A DNA stretch of 64,000 bases from Rhizobium sp. Leaf306. Lineage in GTDB: Bacteria > Pseudomonadota > Alphaproteobacteria > Rhizobiales > Rhizobiaceae. The stretch covers positions 558,001-622,000 of the forward strand of contig NZ_LMNX01000002.1 in NCBI RefSeq assembly GCF_001423425.1. Reading direction: 5' to 3'. Of the stretch, positions 40,165-54,703 are shown in pieces (the first letter of the stretch is position 1; every line of letters starts with the position of its first letter). A program made the position numbers and the translations under genes. The notes under the pieces were generated by a model. The model was given only the letters and a program-made list of their open reading frames with translations, searched no databases and had not been told where the DNA came from.

Positions 40165-40505
40165 AGGTGAAGGCTTCTGTTGCCAGGTGCCTCCGGACCC
40201 CGCCTTACGGGGCTAACCGTAAGGACTTAGTTCGGGTTTCCCGCACCGCCATTAGGCAGCGAGAGCGTAACCCTTAGCGTTGTTGTCATTTGCAACTACA
40301 CTTGTGACCCGATAACGGCGGTATCATGCCGAGCAAAAGTTCGATCTTTACACCCTTGTCGATCCTATTTCGCCCCCATCACAAGCCGGTCCAGATTGAC
40401 CGACCGGTTTGTGGTGGAGGCGCCGGGTACCGCCCCCGGGTCCAATAGGCTTATTTCATCGACCGTTTATCGCCATATCCGAACCGAAGTCCGGCACGAG
40501 TGATA
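40165..40505 (-). ncRNA. ssrA: tmRNA, circularly permuted two-piece form
   Basis: tmRNA rescues stalled ribosomes and adds a degradation tag. On the minus strand the order is acceptor piece, spacer, coding piece. The acceptor piece ends CGCCTCC-ACCA at 40422-40412. After a spacer (40411-40378), the coding piece starts GGGGGCG at 40377-40371, which pairs with CGCCTCC to form the acceptor stem. The tag frame (40293-40252) reads ANDNNAKGYALAA then TAA. A pseudoknot (CCTTACGG with CCGTAAGG, CCCC with GGGG) follows. The two pieces also pair through GTCCGG (40198-40193) and CCGGAC (40494-40489), extended by GCAC/GTGC. The outer ends are approximate. Confidence 0.93.
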
Positions 40506-40658
40506 TAGGGGTTTGCGAACCGGATGAAAAGAGGTCTCGTCATATTCCTATCATCAACGTGAAAAGCTTGGAAAAGCCGCGCCGGTGACGGGGAGGTGAT
40601 TGGTGAGTAGGCTTCGTGCTATTATGTAGGACGATCTCGACCAATCGGCGGAAGACCT

Positions 40659-48668: not shown

Positions 48669-50858
48669 TCAGTCCTTGTCGTAGAGACTGCTCAGCGGCT
48701 TCTTGAGAAGACCATCGCGCAACGAACCTTCCCTTGGCGGAGCTTCGCGCCGCAGGAATGCGTTCGGACGCGGTTCCAGTGACGGCGAGCCTGGTCGAGG
48801 GGTCTCGGACGAAACCTGCCGACGAAGATCGGCGAAACGGTCGTGAATGGCGGGCGGGCGATCCGTGAGCCGGTCGGTCTGGCGCTCCGCGGGACGCTCG
48901 GCAAAGCGCTCAACCGGCCTGTCGCGTTCCGGGAAGCGCGGTGCAAGCCGCTCCGCTGCACGCGGGGTCGGCAGCATGTCGGATGTGTAGGGTGCCAACG
49001 AGGGCGGCTCCGGCGAGCGCGGGGCAGGCGCATCGAGCGGCGGTATACCGCTGCCGATTTCACGCCGCCAGTCATTCAGTTCCGCGTCATCGGCGGCCGG
49101 CACAGCCTGCCTGTCTTCGGGGGGGATCGGCAGACCTGCCTCCGGGGCGGGTGGATTGGCGGAATAGCTCTGCTGGAACGATGAGATTTCCGGCGCTGTG
49201 ACCGAGCGCATGCGGGACACGATCGAACGCAAATCAACCGTGTCGGGCGTTTCTTCGCTGCCCTTGTTTGCAAGACTGTTGGTCTTTGGAAGATAGCGTT
49301 TCTCGACGCGTGAGAAGCGCATGCGCATGGGAACCGAGATGGCCTCGCCGAACGCGATTGCCTCGCCATTGCCGATCGACGACAGGAAGCTCGTCGTCGA
49401 AATCGACGAATTCGGGATCGCCGACTTGATGATGACCTGATCCCGTTCATTCGACAGGCGCATGGCAAACAGTGTCGAGCACTGGGACAGGATCGTCTGG
49501 TCAAGCTCGCCGGGGCGCTGCGTGATGATGCCAAGGGAAACGCCGTATTTCCGGCCTTCCTTTGCGATGCGGGAGATGGCCTGCACGGTCGGCGCAAACC
49601 CGAGCTCCCGGTCCGCCGGTACGTAGCGGTGCGCTTCCTCGCAGACAACGAGCATGTGAATTGCGCCATTGCTCCAGAGCGCAAGCTCGAACGCCATGCG
49701 GCAGAGGATAGAGGCGACAGAGTTCACGACTTCCGATGGGATGCCGGCAAGCTGGAACGTCGAGATCGGCCGGTCGTCGCCGGGAATGCGGAAGATATGC
49801 GCGATCGTCTCCATGATCGTGTCTTGGATCGTGTTGTTGGAGAACATGAAATGGTAGCGCGGATCGTTGATAGCCGACGTGATGCGCATTTTCAGAGCGC
49901 GCAGGAACGGCTTGTCGGAGCGACCCTCCAGCCTGCCGAGCCGTTCGTCGATCAGGGCCAGCAGATCGGCCATGCGGTAAGGGACGGGCGTATCGGCGGT
50001 CAGTGAACTTTTTTCCGAAGCCGAGCGGCGCATCAGGCCCGAATCGCTGCCCTTGAAAGCGCGTTTTGCTTCCGGGATGAGGTCGCGCATGATGTCGAGC
50101 TCTTCGGGGATAGCCGGGCGGCCACGGAAAATGACCTCCGAGAATTCCTCAAGGCGCATCAGCCAGAAAGGCAGGTCGAGCGTGTCGGTATCGATAATGA
50201 CCGCATGATCGGGAAAGGCTGCCGCAAATTCGTTGTGCGGATCGAGGATCAGAACGCGGAGCCGATGGTCAGCTTCGATCGCCTTGTGCAGGAGAAGCGA
50301 AACGGCTGTCGACTTGCCGACGCCGGTGGAGCCGACGATGGCGAAATGCTTCGACAGCATTGAAGGCACATGGATCGCCGCATCGATGCTTTCATCCTGG
50401 CTGAGCTTGCCGATCGTGCACGTATCGTTCTTGCCGGCATCGTAGATGCGCAGAAGGTCGGCCGAGCGGATACGATGGGCAATGGCGCCGAGATAGGGGT
50501 AGGCGGAAATGCCGCTCGAAAACTCTTCGCGGCCATCATGCCCGACACGGACCTCGCCGAGCAGCTCGACTTCGATGTGGAATTTCGTGTCTTCGCCTTC
50601 CGCCCACTGGCGTTCGCCAGATTGCATCGAATAGGCAAGCGCGACGACGCGGTTGCTGCCGACGGAAATGGAGATCAGCCGGCCGACGGACCAGAGTTCG
50701 GTGAGATCGGTGTCGCCATGCTCGGCGACAGCTGCGATCGTCGCATGCGAGCCGTTGCAGGCGACGACACGGCCCAGCATCCGGTTACCGATTTTCTGGG
50801 CATCGCGACGCTCTTGCTCCCCGGCAGAGATCGAACGGTGAAGGTCGTTGTTCAACAA
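48669..50858 (-). CDS. HerA/FtsK-like ATPase (DUF87) with disordered C-terminal tail
   Basis: A 729-aa P-loop ATPase. The N-terminal HAS-barrel-like domain (about residues 25-150) is followed by Walker A GSTGVGKST (176-184), LILDPHNEFAAAFPD, Walker B MLVVCEEAHRYVP, and a sensor region GIITQRPGELDQTILSQCST. This fits the HerA/DUF87 helicase-translocase family. The last 200 residues are Pro/Arg/Glu rich (for example ERPAERQTDRLTDRP) and predicted disordered. No NurA nuclease gene is next to it, so the partner is unknown. The start is TTG 50858; a later ATG at 50780 is possible. Confidence 0.85.
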   Translation of the reverse strand: MLNNDLHRSISAGEQERRDAQKIGNRMLGRVVACNGSHATIAAVAEHGDTDLTELWSVGRLISISVGSNRVVALAYSMQSGERQWAEGEDTKFHIEVELLGEVRVGHDGREEFSSGISAYPYLGAIAHRIRSADLLRIYDAGKNDTCTIGKLSQDESIDAAIHVPSMLSKHFAIVGSTGVGKSTAVSLLLHKAIEADHRLRVLILDPHNEFAAAFPDHAVIIDTDTLDLPFWLMRLEEFSEVIFRGRPAIPEELDIMRDLIPEAKRAFKGSDSGLMRRSASEKSSLTADTPVPYRMADLLALIDERLGRLEGRSDKPFLRALKMRITSAINDPRYHFMFSNNTIQDTIMETIAHIFRIPGDDRPISTFQLAGIPSEVVNSVASILCRMAFELALWSNGAIHMLVVCEEAHRYVPADRELGFAPTVQAISRIAKEGRKYGVSLGIITQRPGELDQTILSQCSTLFAMRLSNERDQVIIKSAIPNSSISTTSFLSSIGNGEAIAFGEAISVPMRMRFSRVEKRYLPKTNSLANKGSEETPDTVDLRSIVSRMRSVTAPEISSFQQSYSANPPAPEAGLPIPPEDRQAVPAADDAELNDWRREIGSGIPPLDAPAPRSPEPPSLAPYTSDMLPTPRAAERLAPRFPERDRPVERFAERPAERQTDRLTDRPPAIHDRFADLRRQVSSETPRPGSPSLEPRPNAFLRREAPPREGSLRDGLLKKPLSSLYDKD

Positions 50859-51028
50859 CAGTAACGGCCCTGCAAATGGGGTGGCAATCGAAAGGTGATA
50901 TGGAGATCAGGTTCCTCCAATCTCGCGACTGTAGCCTTGCCGGCTTAACAACTTGTGTAGGACCTCGTGACTTTCGGCGCGAACTGCGAGCGATCTCAAT
51001 GAGATGACGTTTTTGCTGACGGTCTGCG

Positions 51029-51057
51029 TTGACGAATGGGGCATATCCGGCTAACAC
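51029..51057 (+). promoter_or_regulatory. promoter of the ilv leader
   Basis: TTGACG (51029-51034) and TAACAC (51052-51057) are 17 bases apart. The predicted first base falls at about 51063-51066, on or just before the leader ATG at 51066. The 170 bases between the HerA-like gene and this promoter hold nothing else I recognise. Confidence 0.55.
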
Positions 51058-51065
51058 TCACGGCC

Positions 51066-51122
51066 ATGAAGATTTCGAACGCACTTATCGTGGTGGGAAC
51101 GCGCATGGGCAGGACGGTGTAA
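51066..51122 (+). CDS. ilvL: leader peptide of the ilvIH operon (predicted)
   Basis: An 18-codon frame reads MKISNALIVVGTRMGRTV then TAA. Five of 18 codons are for branched-chain amino acids: Ile3, Leu7, Ile8, Val9 and Val10, the last four in a row. It ends about 110 bases before the ilvI start and is followed by two hairpins, the last a terminator. No clear Shine-Dalgarno precedes it, and the predicted transcript starts at or near its AUG, so it may be translated leaderless. The symbol is given by role only. Confidence 0.7.
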   Translation: MKISNALIVVGTRMGRTV

Positions 51123-51148
51123 CCGTCCGGCGATAGCCACCCATGCGC
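51101..51148 (+). promoter_or_regulatory. long leader hairpin before the ilv attenuator
   Basis: GCGCATGGG (51101-51109) pairs perfectly with CCCATGCGC (51140-51148). Inside lies a second hairpin, GGACGG (51112-51117) with CCGTCC (51123-51128), whose loop TGTAA carries the leader stop codon. The first strand begins just after the BCAA codons, where a stalled ribosome would block it. Confidence 0.65.
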
Positions 51149-51156
51149 GGAAAGAC

Positions 51157-51180
51157 AGGCTCCTCAAGGGGCCTTTTTTT
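51157..51180 (+). terminator. attenuator terminator of ilvIH
   Basis: AGGCTCC (51157-51163) pairs with GGGGCCT (51168-51174) over loop TCAA, with one G-U pair, followed by a run of seven T (51174-51180). It ends directly before the ilvI 5' region and would stop transcription of the operon. Confidence 0.8.
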
Positions 51181-51231
51181 ATGTCTTCAAACCGGCTCGG
51201 AGGAGCCGCCGGTAAATCCAGAAGTGAACGG

Positions 51232-53019
51232 ATGACGATGATGACGGATACGAATAACAGGATGACGGGCGCAGAGATCGTCCTGAAGGCGCTGAAGGAC
51301 AACGGCGTCGAGCATATTTTCGGCTATCCCGGCGGCGCGATCCTGCCGATCTATGACGAAATCTTCCAGCAGGATGACATCAAGCACATCCTCGTCCGCC
51401 ACGAACAGGGCGCCGGCCATGCGGCCGAAGGCTATGCCCGTTCGACCGGCAAGGTTGGTGTCATGCTCGTCACCTCAGGTCCAGGCGCCACCAACGCGGT
51501 TACGCCGCTGCAGGACGCGCTGATGGATTCGATCCCGCTCGTGTGTCTGACCGGCCAGGTTCCGACCAACCTGATCGGCTCGGATGCCTTCCAGGAAGCC
51601 GATACGGTCGGCATCACGCGCCCCTGCACCAAGCACAACTGGCTCGTCAAGGACGTCGACCAGCTGGCCGGTGTCATCCACGAGGCGTTCCGTATCGCCC
51701 AGTCGGGCCGTCCGGGACCTGTTGTCGTCGATATCCCGAAGGATATCCAGTTTGCGACCGGCACCTACACGCCACCGGGCGCGACGCCTGCCAACAAGAG
51801 TTACGCGCCCAAGCTTGCCGGCGATATGCAGGCAATCGAGGCAGCCGTACAGCTCATGGCCTCGGCCCGTCGGCCGATCCTCTATACCGGCGGTGGCGTC
51901 ATCAATTCCGGTCCGGAAGCGTCGCGTTTGCTGCGCGAGTTGATCGAGCTCACGGATTTCCCGATCACCTCGACGCTGATGGGGCTCGGCGCCTATCCGG
52001 CATCGGGCAAGAACTGGCTCGGCATGCTGGGCATGCACGGTTCCTATGAAGCCAACATGGCGATGCATGACTGCGACGTCATGGTTTGCGTCGGTGCGCG
52101 TTTCGACGACCGCATCACCGGTCGCCTGAACGCGTTCGCGCCGAACTCGCGCAAGATCCACATCGATATCGACCCGTCGTCGATCAACAAGAACGTTCGT
52201 GTCGAGATCCCGATCATCGGTGATGTCGGCCATGTTCTGGAGGAGATGGTCCGCCTGTGGCGCGCCCTGCCGCAAAAGCAGGACAAGGCGCAGATCTCCG
52301 ACTGGTGGAGCGAAATCCAGAGCTGGCGGGGTCGCAAGTCGTTTTCCTACAAGAACTCGACCGACGTCATCATGCCGCAATACGCGGTCGAGCGTCTCTA
52401 CGAGGCGACGAAGGGTCACAAGACCTTCATCACGACCGAGGTCGGCCAGCACCAGATGTGGGCGGCACAGTTCTTCGGTTTCGAAGAGCCGAACCGCTGG
52501 ATGACATCGGGTGGTCTCGGCACGATGGGTTACGGCCTGCCGGCAGCTCTCGGCGTTCAGGTCGCGCATCCCGATGCGCTCGTCATCGACATTGCCGGCG
52601 ACGCGTCGATCCAGATGTGCATCCAGGAAATGTCCTGCGCGATCCAGCACGATCTGCCGGTCAAGATCTTTATCCTGAACAACCAGTATATGGGCATGGT
52701 GCGCCAGTGGCAGCAGCTGCTTCACGGCAACCGCCTGTCGAACTCCTATACGGAAGCGATGCCTGACTTCGTCAAACTAGCGGAAGCTTACGGTGCTGTC
52801 GGCATGTATTGCGACGATCCCAAGGAGCTGGACGACAAGATCGCCGAGATGATCGCGGTCAGGCGGCCGGTCATCTTCGATTGCCGCGTTGCGAACCTCA
52901 CCAACTGCTTCCCGATGATCCCGTCAGGCAAGGCTCATAACGAGATGCTGCTGCCGGACGAGGCGACCGATGACGCTGTTGCGACAGCGATCGACGCCAA
53001 GGGCCGTCAGCTGGTTTGA
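51232..53019 (+). CDS. ilvI: acetolactate synthase, large subunit
   Basis: The TPP-dependent catalytic subunit makes acetolactate or acetohydroxybutyrate, the first common step of valine, isoleucine and leucine synthesis. The 595-aa protein has the catalytic glutamate E58 in RHEQGAGHAAEGYARS, the FAD-binding middle domain, and the TPP motif IAGDASIQMCIQEM followed by NNQYMGMVRQWQ. I start at ATG 51232; a frame from ATG 51181 is open but its first codons form a GC-rich hairpin and are not conserved. The gene lies behind a leader peptide and attenuator. Confidence 0.95.
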   Translation: MTMMTDTNNRMTGAEIVLKALKDNGVEHIFGYPGGAILPIYDEIFQQDDIKHILVRHEQGAGHAAEGYARSTGKVGVMLVTSGPGATNAVTPLQDALMDSIPLVCLTGQVPTNLIGSDAFQEADTVGITRPCTKHNWLVKDVDQLAGVIHEAFRIAQSGRPGPVVVDIPKDIQFATGTYTPPGATPANKSYAPKLAGDMQAIEAAVQLMASARRPILYTGGGVINSGPEASRLLRELIELTDFPITSTLMGLGAYPASGKNWLGMLGMHGSYEANMAMHDCDVMVCVGARFDDRITGRLNAFAPNSRKIHIDIDPSSINKNVRVEIPIIGDVGHVLEEMVRLWRALPQKQDKAQISDWWSEIQSWRGRKSFSYKNSTDVIMPQYAVERLYEATKGHKTFITTEVGQHQMWAAQFFGFEEPNRWMTSGGLGTMGYGLPAALGVQVAHPDALVIDIAGDASIQMCIQEMSCAIQHDLPVKIFILNNQYMGMVRQWQQLLHGNRLSNSYTEAMPDFVKLAEAYGAVGMYCDDPKELDDKIAEMIAVRRPVIFDCRVANLTNCFPMIPSGKAHNEMLLPDEATDDAVATAIDAKGRQLV

Positions 53020-53089: not shown

Positions 53090-53662
53090 ATGAATGCACA
53101 TCAGCAGCCGACCGGTTCTGCCTACTTCTTCCAGCCGGAGACGGCCAAGGTCGAGAGCCATACGCTTTCGGTTCTCGTCAGCAACGAGCCGGGCGTTCTT
53201 GCCCGCGTCATCGGGCTTTTCTCCGGCCGCGGCTACAATATCGAAAGCCTGACGGTTTCGGAGACCGAGCATGAAGCGCACCTATCGCGCATCACGATCG
53301 TCACCAACGGAACGCCGACCGTGCTTGAGCAGATCAAAGCGCAGCTCGAGCGCATCGTGCCTGTCCACCGGGTTCTCGACCTGACGGTCCGAGCGCGCGA
53401 TCTTGGCCAGGACCGGCCGATCGAACGGGAAGTGGCATTGCTCAAGGTCGTCGGCCACGGCGACCAGCGGGCAGAGGCCTTGCGTCTCGCCGACGCGTTC
53501 CAGGCGAAGGTCGTGGACGCGACGATCGAGCACTTCATCTTCGAAATCACCGGCAAGTCGTCGAAGATCGATCAGTTCGTGGCGGTCATCAGACCTCTCG
53601 GCCTGATCGAGATCTGCCGCACGGGCATCGCCGCGATGAACCGCGGCTCGCAGGGCATGTAA
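53090..53662 (+). CDS. ilvH: acetolactate synthase, regulatory small subunit
   Basis: The small subunit activates the large one and gives valine feedback control. The 190-aa protein has an N-terminal ACT domain (HTLSVLVSNEPGVLARVIGL, then FSGRGYNIESLTVS) and a C-terminal ALS_ss domain (EREVALLKVVGHGDQRAEAL). It follows ilvI by 70 bases in the same direction and must be in the same operon. Confidence 0.97.
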   Translation: MNAHQQPTGSAYFFQPETAKVESHTLSVLVSNEPGVLARVIGLFSGRGYNIESLTVSETEHEAHLSRITIVTNGTPTVLEQIKAQLERIVPVHRVLDLTVRARDLGQDRPIEREVALLKVVGHGDQRAEALRLADAFQAKVVDATIEHFIFEITGKSSKIDQFVAVIRPLGLIEICRTGIAAMNRGSQGM

Positions 53663-54703
53663 GTGTCGGGCCGTGGCGCCGGGGATATTCCATTGCAAAA
53701 GGGCTGGCTGCCGAAACCTGGAACGCGCATCGGTGCGACCTTCTATGTCCGGCAGTCCCAGCCCTTTTTGCGGCATTACTTCGGCGTAGAGGCGCTTGAG
53801 CCGACGCTTCGGCCGGGGATCGGCGGGATCGTTCTGTGGGGCGGTCGCGCTCCGGCAAAGGCGGCGAGGTTGATTGCCGCGCTGCGCGGCCTGCCGAGCT
53901 GGTTTCTCGAAGACGGGTTTTTACGCTCGGTGGGTCTCGGCAAGCAGAACGCGCTGCCGATTTCGATCCAGATCGACGACCTTGGCATGCCGGTAAGGGC
54001 CGCCGTTCCCTCGCGGCTGGAAAAGGTGATCGCGGCATCTGCCGACGATTGGGATGCTGCATCCCTGGGCAGTGATATCCGCACTGCGCTGGTGTCTGAA
54101 AAGCTCTCGAAATACAACAACCTGCCGCATCGGGAGCTGAAACTCGAGAGATCGCTGCGAAAGCGCATCCTTCTGGTTGACCAGGTGTTCGGCGATGTTT
54201 CGGTGCCGATGGCGGGCGGCTCGCCGGACAGCTTTTCTCGGATGCTCAAGGATGCGATCGCGAGCGGTGCTCAATGCGTGGTGCGCACCCATCCGGATGT
54301 GATGGCCGGTTTCCGCAAGGGCTACCTGACCGAACAGGCAGCGAACGCGTCCGGCGTGATTCTCCTGTCGGATGCGGTCTCGGTTGCCTCCATTCTCGAC
54401 GTGGTGGACGAAGTCTGGACGGTCTCGAGCCAGTTCGGGCTGGACGCGCTCCTGCGCGAAAAGCCGGTGCGGTGTTATGCCGGTCCGTTCTATGCGGGCT
54501 GGGACCTGACCGAAGATCACCTCGGTGGGGGCGCGCAGGCCACTCTGTCTCGTCGGACCGCCCGTCCCACCATCGATCAGCTGGCAGCGGCAGCCTTCGG
54601 CCTATACCCGGTCTATCGCGACACGAAGAGCTTTGCCGAAATCGACGTCTTCAAGGCGATCGAGACGCTCGCGGACGAGCGCCGACGGCTGAATCTCGAC
54701 TAG
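53663..54703 (+). CDS. KpsC/LpsZ-like capsule polysaccharide protein
   Basis: A 346-aa protein of the Capsule_synth family (KpsC/KpsS, rhizobial LpsZ/RkpJ-like), which includes beta-Kdo transferases for K-antigen lipid anchors. Motifs seen are [56 protein letters not shown] and [12 protein letters not shown]. KpsC itself has two such domains; this has one. It starts at GTG 53663, immediately after the ilvH stop, which suggests co-transcription. No other capsule gene is near. The stop overlaps that of the convergent aldo/keto reductase (CTAG). Confidence 0.82.

Follow-up and report, generated by a model that had tools for sequence, protein, structure and literature searches.

A probable leaderless, ribosome-dependent attenuator upstream of ilvIH in Rhizobium, with related leaders elsewhere in its class, including valine-rich leaders before transporter genes

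The ilvIH locus of Rhizobium sp. Leaf306

The DNA analyzed here (hereafter, the window) is a 64,000-nucleotide stretch of the Rhizobium sp. Leaf306 genome. It carries the acetolactate synthase genes ilvI and ilvH, which are preceded by a short leader open reading frame (ORF), nested hairpins, and an intrinsic terminator (Table 1). The ilvI ORF opens at 51181, and its similarity to the family model begins only at residue 21. The divergent neighbor (48669-50858, minus strand) encodes a HerA-type helicase domain (Pfam DUF87), and its product resembles anti-phage-associated HerA models at scores below the cut-off. A gene matching Capsule_synth (PF05159) lies directly 3' of ilvH (53663-54703, plus strand), and an alpha-proteobacterial tmRNA gene (RF01849) occupies 40166-40534 on the minus strand.

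Table 1. Features of the ilvIH locus, in window coordinates
Feature	Position	Strand	Basis or match
-35 element TTGACG	51029-51034	+	Read directly from sequence
-10 element TAACAC, 8 nt 5' of ATG	51052-51057	+	Read directly; 17-nt spacer to -35
Leader ORF, predicted leaderless, MKISNALIVVGTRMGRTV + TAA, 18 codons	51066-51122	+	Read directly
Regulatory codons CTT ATC GTG GTG (Leu-Ile-Val-Val), codons 7-10	51084-51095	+	Read directly
P1 hairpin, 10 bp (51100-51109 / 51140-51149)	51100-51149	+	Fold
P2 inner hairpin, stop codon at loop	51112-51128	+	Fold; inside P1
P3 inner hairpin	51129-51138	+	Fold; inside P1
Intrinsic terminator AGGCTCC-TCAA-GGGGCCT + T tract	51157-51180	+	Sequence, motif scan, fold
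Rfam RF02502 Atu_C8 match	51068-51190	+	124.5 bits, E 3.3e-27
ilvI, acetolactate synthase large subunit	51181-53019	+	NF006581, 1205 bits, residues 21-612
ilvH, acetolactate synthase small subunit	53090-53662	+	NF008864, 221 bits

An earlier note, made from the sequence alone, had proposed a leader peptide and attenuator controlling ilvIH at this site. Direct reading confirmed the promoter-like pair with its 17-nt spacing, the leader ATG at 51066, the consecutive Leu-Ile-Val-Val codons, and the seven T residues (51174-51180) that the note had described, the terminator stem being formed by 51157-51163 and 51168-51174. The hairpin that it had placed right behind these codons is also present, beginning 4 nt 3' of the last Val codon; its outer stem measures 10 bp instead of the 9 bp given there. 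Folding further supported the claim that the stop codon sits in a nested loop, since the TAA overlaps the loop of P2. The segment from 51066 to 51180 folded with a predicted energy of -54.1 kcal/mol (z = -5.04), and none of 200 shuffled sequences folded equally well.

A generic scan of positions 49500-52500 returned no sigma-70-like promoter at the scan threshold (0.7 in shuffles) and one terminator-like site (2.3 in shuffles). Since this is no better than shuffles, the promoter and the terminator, each taken alone in the window, are within chance; what places the two together beyond chance is the RF02502 match, with its E-value of 3.3e-27, and the conservation in relatives. An extra promoter between the terminator and ilvI was also considered, and the scan of the same interval revealed none.

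Distribution of the element

The window element scored above the RF02502 gathering threshold of 50 bits over the full length of the covariance model (all 122 model positions), and this match was the only one in the source genome. Rfam labels the family "Rhizobiales sRNA", in keeping with the earlier suggestion that a discrete RNA may be released from the leader. The Rfam fields shown for Atu_C8 describe an sRNA and mention neither a leader peptide nor ilvI, and position 1 of the model falls 2 nt into the leader ORF of the window. Two other Rfam matches near the site, to ctRNA_p42d and sR1, fell below their own cut-offs and were dismissed.

In the bacterial family, 96 of 101 sampled genomes had an RF02502 match (92 of them scoring above the cut-off); the corresponding figures were 131 of 249 sampled genomes for the order (38 above it) and 6 of 289 for the class, the source genome included (2 above it). 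For further analysis, we assembled 118 elements from 30 order-search loci, 60 loci hand-picked for spread, and 28 new family-search loci. In 116 of these 118 relatives the element precedes ilvI, at a distance of 3-200 nt (median, 49 nt). Twenty further family regions, queried for ilvI only, all contained the gene, as did two of the six loci L247-L252. The terminator analyses comprised 116 sequences, with identical rows counted once and L058 left out; there, a contig end cuts the locus so that the length rule failed, and the T tract is not lacking. Tandem RF02502-like matches below the cut-off were seen on one contig of genome G223, about 2.7 kb apart (L071 and L072) and each followed by an ilvI-like gene, and a genome of another genus of the family (G023) holds a second element copy (L031) 5' of an ilvI-like gene.

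Outside Rhizobiaceae, the sequence of the element diverges and its architecture is kept. Two further orders of the class, represented here by genomes G363 and G381, have ilv leaders of the same layout. Of 29 loci read in the order of G363, the terminator filter retained 22 for counting. Of 30 loci read in the order of G381, 29 (all except L308) satisfied the first terminator rule, and a second rule left 24 distinct loci for counting. A wider sample of 30 ilvI loci (29 besides the window's own, 28 of them outside the order) yielded a candidate leader ORF in 6 of the 29, and only 3 of these 6 were judged alike by eye (L258, from the same order, L262, and L271).

Leader peptides and their codons

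Conservation of the branched-chain amino acid (BCAA) codons in relatives had been set beforehand as a test of the attenuator proposal. All 118 leaders contain a run of at least three Ile, Leu, or Val codons, a count that is somewhat inflated because our leader picker favors such runs among candidate starts, and 110 of the 118 contain a run of at least four. As a control, runs of at least three were found in 95 of 1462 other short ATG ORFs from the same loci.

The codons used in these runs are unusual compared with those of 80 named ilvI genes, which come from different genomes than the leaders. GTA accounts for 126 of 229 Val codons in the leader runs and 53 of 3324 in the ilvI genes, and ATT for 85 of 139 Ile codons versus 486 of 3251. 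Conversely, CTG accounts for only 6 of 155 Leu codons in the runs versus 1937 of 3320 in the genes; 142 of the 155 are CTT or CTC. In the window's own ilvI, CTT makes up 2 of 43 Leu codons, and GTG makes up 2 of 41 Val codons.

Position of the promoter relative to the leader ATG

The earlier note had also placed the first transcribed base at or near the leader ATG, and the promoter spacing fits such a start. Across Rhizobiaceae, all 39 elements have a TTGA[CT] word 35-38 nt 5' of the start codon, and just one has a Shine-Dalgarno-like word before the leader start. The 80 named ilvI loci, drawn from Agrobacterium, Rhizobium, Neorhizobium, Sinorhizobium, Mesorhizobium, Ochrobactrum, and others, gave a similar picture: all 80 have a leader, 76 show the 35-38-nt spacing, and Shine-Dalgarno-like words are absent throughout. 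The four loci off this spacing are ones where an in-frame start further upstream had been picked.

The rhizobial trp leader (rnTrpL/peTrpL) offers a parallel. According to the portion of PMC7298713 that concerns it, the 5' end of Sinorhizobium meliloti trpL RNA is the trpL ATG. The trp leader of the source genome (L233) likewise has a -10-like TAACAA 8 nt before its ATG, a gap equal to that of the ilv element. Owing to the 35-38-nt spacing, the dearth of Shine-Dalgarno words, and this trp parallel, the sequence evidence favors a leaderless message as the best reading for the ilv leader of Rhizobiaceae.

Alternatively, transcription might begin further upstream, giving the ATG a normal 5' untranslated region. 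Such an arrangement finds some support in the other families of the order, where only 15 of 79 elements carry TTGA[CT] at 33-42 nt, 45 occurrences of the word fall at 53-65 nt, and a Shine-Dalgarno-like word is present in 46 of the 79. For Rhizobiaceae, we consider it highly unlikely in view of the uniform spacing and near-absence of Shine-Dalgarno-like words both in the family's 39 elements and in the named loci. The length of the leader thus seems, as judged from promoter spacing, to differ between families of the order, with leaderless and led forms.

The P1 hairpin and its proximity to the terminator

P1 encloses the stop codon in the folds of all 116 sequences, and in 104 of them the stop codon overlaps a hairpin loop. 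Among 51 aligned sequences, changes on both sides were found in 8 of the 10 P1 pairs, and the outermost pair was unpaired in 23 sequences. Over P1 and the terminator together, 94.8% of alignment cells were paired, with a covariation score of 0.421 versus 0.212 in shuffles. As P1 covaries and encloses the stop codon, the passage of a ribosome through it should matter.

In the 116 elements, the linker between P1 and the terminator measures 0-9 nt, and leaders from the order of G363 gave 0-8 nt, whereas 21-28 nt separate the stop-bearing hairpin from the terminator in 10 rhizobial trp leaders. The corresponding linkers in our Escherichia coli trp, thr, and leu controls are 22, 12, and 8 nt, and the thr and leu values mean that the closeness of P1 to the terminator is not special by itself. 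In the order containing family f74, P1 of the ilv leaders runs straight into the terminator. In the order of G381, the sequences of P1 and the terminator share bases; the linker there is 0-1 nt, a value partly forced since the fold ended at the terminator. Only 11 of the 24 loci in that order have a stop codon that overlaps a loop. With P1 free to form, the terminator in that order had a predicted probability of 0.85-0.86; placing the ribosome either at the last BCAA codon or at the stop codon raised this to 0.98. In the order of the window, P1 and the terminator coexist without conflict in the predicted fold of the free RNA.

We also modeled the RNA with a ribosome at defined codons. P1 stayed intact in 116 of 116 sequences with the ribosome at the first BCAA codon and in 114 of 116 with it at the second. 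Moving the ribosome to the last BCAA codon left P1 in none of the 116, and placing it at the stop codon left P1 in 39 of 116. A stall at the last BCAA codon would therefore resemble finishing at the stop codon, since both open the base of P1.

Search for a competing antiterminator

The earlier note had found no obvious competing antiterminator by eye and had nonetheless suggested that ilv may use the same design as trp. We compared the ilv elements with rhizobial trp leaders as a control: 11 of 16 trpE loci have a WWW leader and 5 do not, and 10 of the 11 leaders have a terminator by rule (L226 does not). The best duplex between the 5' arm of the ilv terminator and upstream RNA fell short of the strength found in shuffles (mean z of +0.43 over 116 sequences), whereas the same measure averaged -1.34 in the rhizobial trp leaders. 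For the 3' arm of the ilv terminator, the mean z was +0.53 (117 sequences).

In a stall test, the ribosome was set at one of three codons (the first BCAA codon, the last one, or the stop codon), and pairing of the terminator 5' arm with upstream RNA was calculated before the second arm is made; antitermination was called stall-dependent when sequestration differed by more than 0.4 between stall and stop. In the 10 rhizobial trp leaders, the 5' arm was paired upstream at mean values of 0.85, 0.84, and 0.19 (first codon, last codon, and stop), and 9 of the 10, including L233 from the source genome, were positive. The ilv elements gave 0.25, 0.48, and 0.45, respectively; only 5 of 116 were positive, and 4 of 116 changed in the opposite direction. 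The mean stall minus stop difference was 0.04 for ilv versus 0.66 for rhizobial trp. For the window element, pairing of region 3 was 0.10 at the first and 0.42 at the last codon versus 0.29 at the stop (z, +1.59). Five footprints, extending from +8 to +16 of the A site, gave 1 to 7 positives among the 116 ilv elements and 9 of 10 for trp each time. Among the E. coli controls, leu and trp were clearly positive, and thr was positive for the first codon only. The two further orders behaved as the main set did, with 1 of 22 loci positive and 1 reversed in that of G363 and 2 of 24 positive and none reversed in that of G381. The full terminator was predicted at a probability of about 0.96 in every ribosome state in the main set, a measure that does not discriminate because the trp leaders score as high (0.94-0.95).

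Collectively, a trp-type antiterminator was not found in the window element, nor in most of its relatives in three orders. It is at the antiterminator that the suggested identity of design with trp breaks down. A classical four-segment attenuator, in which stalling of the ribosome would make region 2 available for pairing with the 5' arm of the terminator, nevertheless deserves consideration: the order of parts (codons, stop-bearing hairpin, terminator) matches that of trp, a weak AGCC:GGCT pairing is present in the window, and the five positive relatives do show stall-dependent sequestration above 0.4. Against it stand the arm pairing that is weaker than in shuffles, the near-zero stall minus stop difference, the low count of positives whatever the footprint, and, as an insensitive measure, the terminator probability that is high in every state, and we regard such an attenuator as unlikely. 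An extension of P1 in which the Gly-codon segment after the Val codons would pair with the CUCC of the terminator was judged weak by eye and set aside.

A working model for ilvIH control

Taken as a whole, the element is most probably a ribosome-dependent transcription attenuator of ilvIH with a leaderless leader, a reading to which we assign a probability of roughly 0.85. The RF02502 match, the Ile/Leu/Val runs, the terminator, and the placement before ilvI all point to the BCAA leader peptide and attenuator that the earlier note had proposed.

Judging from promoter spacing, transcription would begin at the ATG or a few bases from it, and the leader would be read as a leaderless message. When charged tRNAs are scarce, the ribosome should slow at Leu-Ile-Val-Val; when they are ample, it should run into P1 as far as the stop codon at the apical loop. 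Termination at the intrinsic terminator would release an RNA of about 115 nt, and readthrough would yield the ilvIH mRNA. That stalling leads to readthrough, and not the reverse, is an assumption borrowed by analogy from the literature on the Caulobacter operon.

The step that couples the ribosome to the terminator might be a gate. Folded P1, lying 0-9 nt before the terminator, could hinder the terminator from closing at the RNA polymerase exit, and a ribosome that opens P1 would lift this hindrance and so permit termination. Consistent with this model are the linkers, shorter in both orders measured than in rhizobial trp, the shared bases and the P1-dependent terminator probability in the order of G381, and the persistence of P1 while the ribosome is on either of the first two BCAA codons. 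Several results go against it, namely, the opening of P1 by a ribosome already at the last BCAA codon, the P1 hairpins kept with the ribosome at the stop codon, the short linkers of the E. coli leu and thr controls, the compatibility of P1 and the terminator in free RNA in the order of the window, and the minority of stop codons lying in the loop in the order of G381. For this reason, we put the gate forward as our preferred but tentative model of the coupling, at well below even odds.

One might also argue that the terminator is constitutive, that the RNA acts mainly in trans as an sRNA or small messenger, and that ilvIH is fed by a fixed readthrough. The family is placed by Rfam among the sRNAs, predicted formation of the terminator is indifferent to the ribosome (by the insensitive measure above), and rnTrpL/peTrpL, as presented in parts of PMC7298713, provides a precedent. 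This scenario is improbable in our estimation, given that both the BCAA codons and the position before ilvI are conserved. Moreover, the sequence changes outside Rhizobiaceae while the architecture stays, which is unexpected for a conserved pairing sRNA. The codons after the Ile/Leu/Val run sit in the P1 and P2 stems, so peptide conservation in that part needs no peptide function.

BCAA-dependent attenuators are said to have been predicted for alpha-proteobacterial ilvIH in the abstract of Vitreschak et al. 2004. Citing that study, Table 3 of PMC2573895 places an "ilvIH cis regulatory" element before SMc01431 of S. meliloti, and a passage of PMC1273637 refers to an earlier-described "ilvB leader peptide" of alpha-proteobacteria. 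As far as these partial accounts go, the ilvIH/ilvB attenuator agrees with the window element in gene, clade, and leader peptide. Attenuation via a leader coding sequence in the Caulobacter ilv operon is mentioned in PMC4117421 with reference to Tarleton et al. 1994; by description, that system (ilvBN/ilvIH) is alike in having a leader coding sequence with tandem Ile/Val codons before acetolactate synthase genes. On the evidence of these excerpts, the alpha-proteobacterial ilvIH attenuator is already in print and not new; the earlier note's guess was thus largely right but concerned a known attenuator. Like the rhizobial trp leader described in PMC7298713, the ilv leader is probably leaderless, and its 8-nt gap between -10 element and ATG equals that of L233; the ilv element lacks both the stall-dependent antiterminator and the long linker of rhizobial trp.

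Relative to the portions of the literature cited here, what is possibly new is the absence of a trp-type antiterminator from most elements in three orders, the split between leaderless and led forms, and the valine-rich leaders before transporter genes described below. The standard account of attenuators does not fit this widely spread member, and if contact between hairpins takes the place of competing pairs, a second wiring of ribosome position to termination exists.

Valine-rich leaders before MFS transporter genes

Two of the 118 elements, L010 (from 1499) and L032 (from 299), are followed by genes that match the Bcr/CflA efflux MFS model; the L010 protein scored above the cut-off, and the L032 protein, truncated by the end of the locus, scored below it. 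A third such element, L247 (from 1499), precedes an MFS gene in another order. A search of the order with the MFS protein returned 30 loci. The 11 nearest include 8 with a leader of the ilv layout, 6 of them by rule and 2 (L344 and L348) by eye; L342 and L351 from this search are the L010 and L032 genes again. None of the 19 more distant MFS loci of the order had a leader, as judged by rule only. In a class search, 4 of 14 MFS loci, including the query, showed a run of at least three Val codons before such a structure, and two more (L376 and L379) were degraded or weak.

Besides L010, L032, and L247, the loci with ilv-type and mostly Val-rich leaders before the MFS gene are L344, L345, L348, L349, L350, L353, L373, L374, and L381; together, they represent several families and another order. 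When 25 MFS loci were scored by a single scripted rule, for which the leader starts of L344 and L348 were entered manually, 13 had a leader. The longest runs in these 13 leaders comprise 36 Val, 6 Ile, and 5 Leu codons; the runs of the 118 main-set leaders, L010 and L032 included, comprise 229 Val, 139 Ile, and 155 Leu codons.

At the level of titles and abstracts, we found nothing on such a Val-leader transporter. A still more speculative idea is that alpha-proteobacteria may possess a distinct class of ribosome-controlled attenuators that are free of an antiterminator and consist of a pair of adjoining hairpins, in which the ribosome gates the first and the first physically hinders the second, and that a Val version of this device could control a clade of Bcr/CflA-type MFS transporters. 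Control of the clade by a Val leader, if true, would imply that its members act on valine or one of its precursors, or else on a compound that deprives the cell of charged tRNA-Val, a concrete prediction of function for genes now named merely efflux-like.
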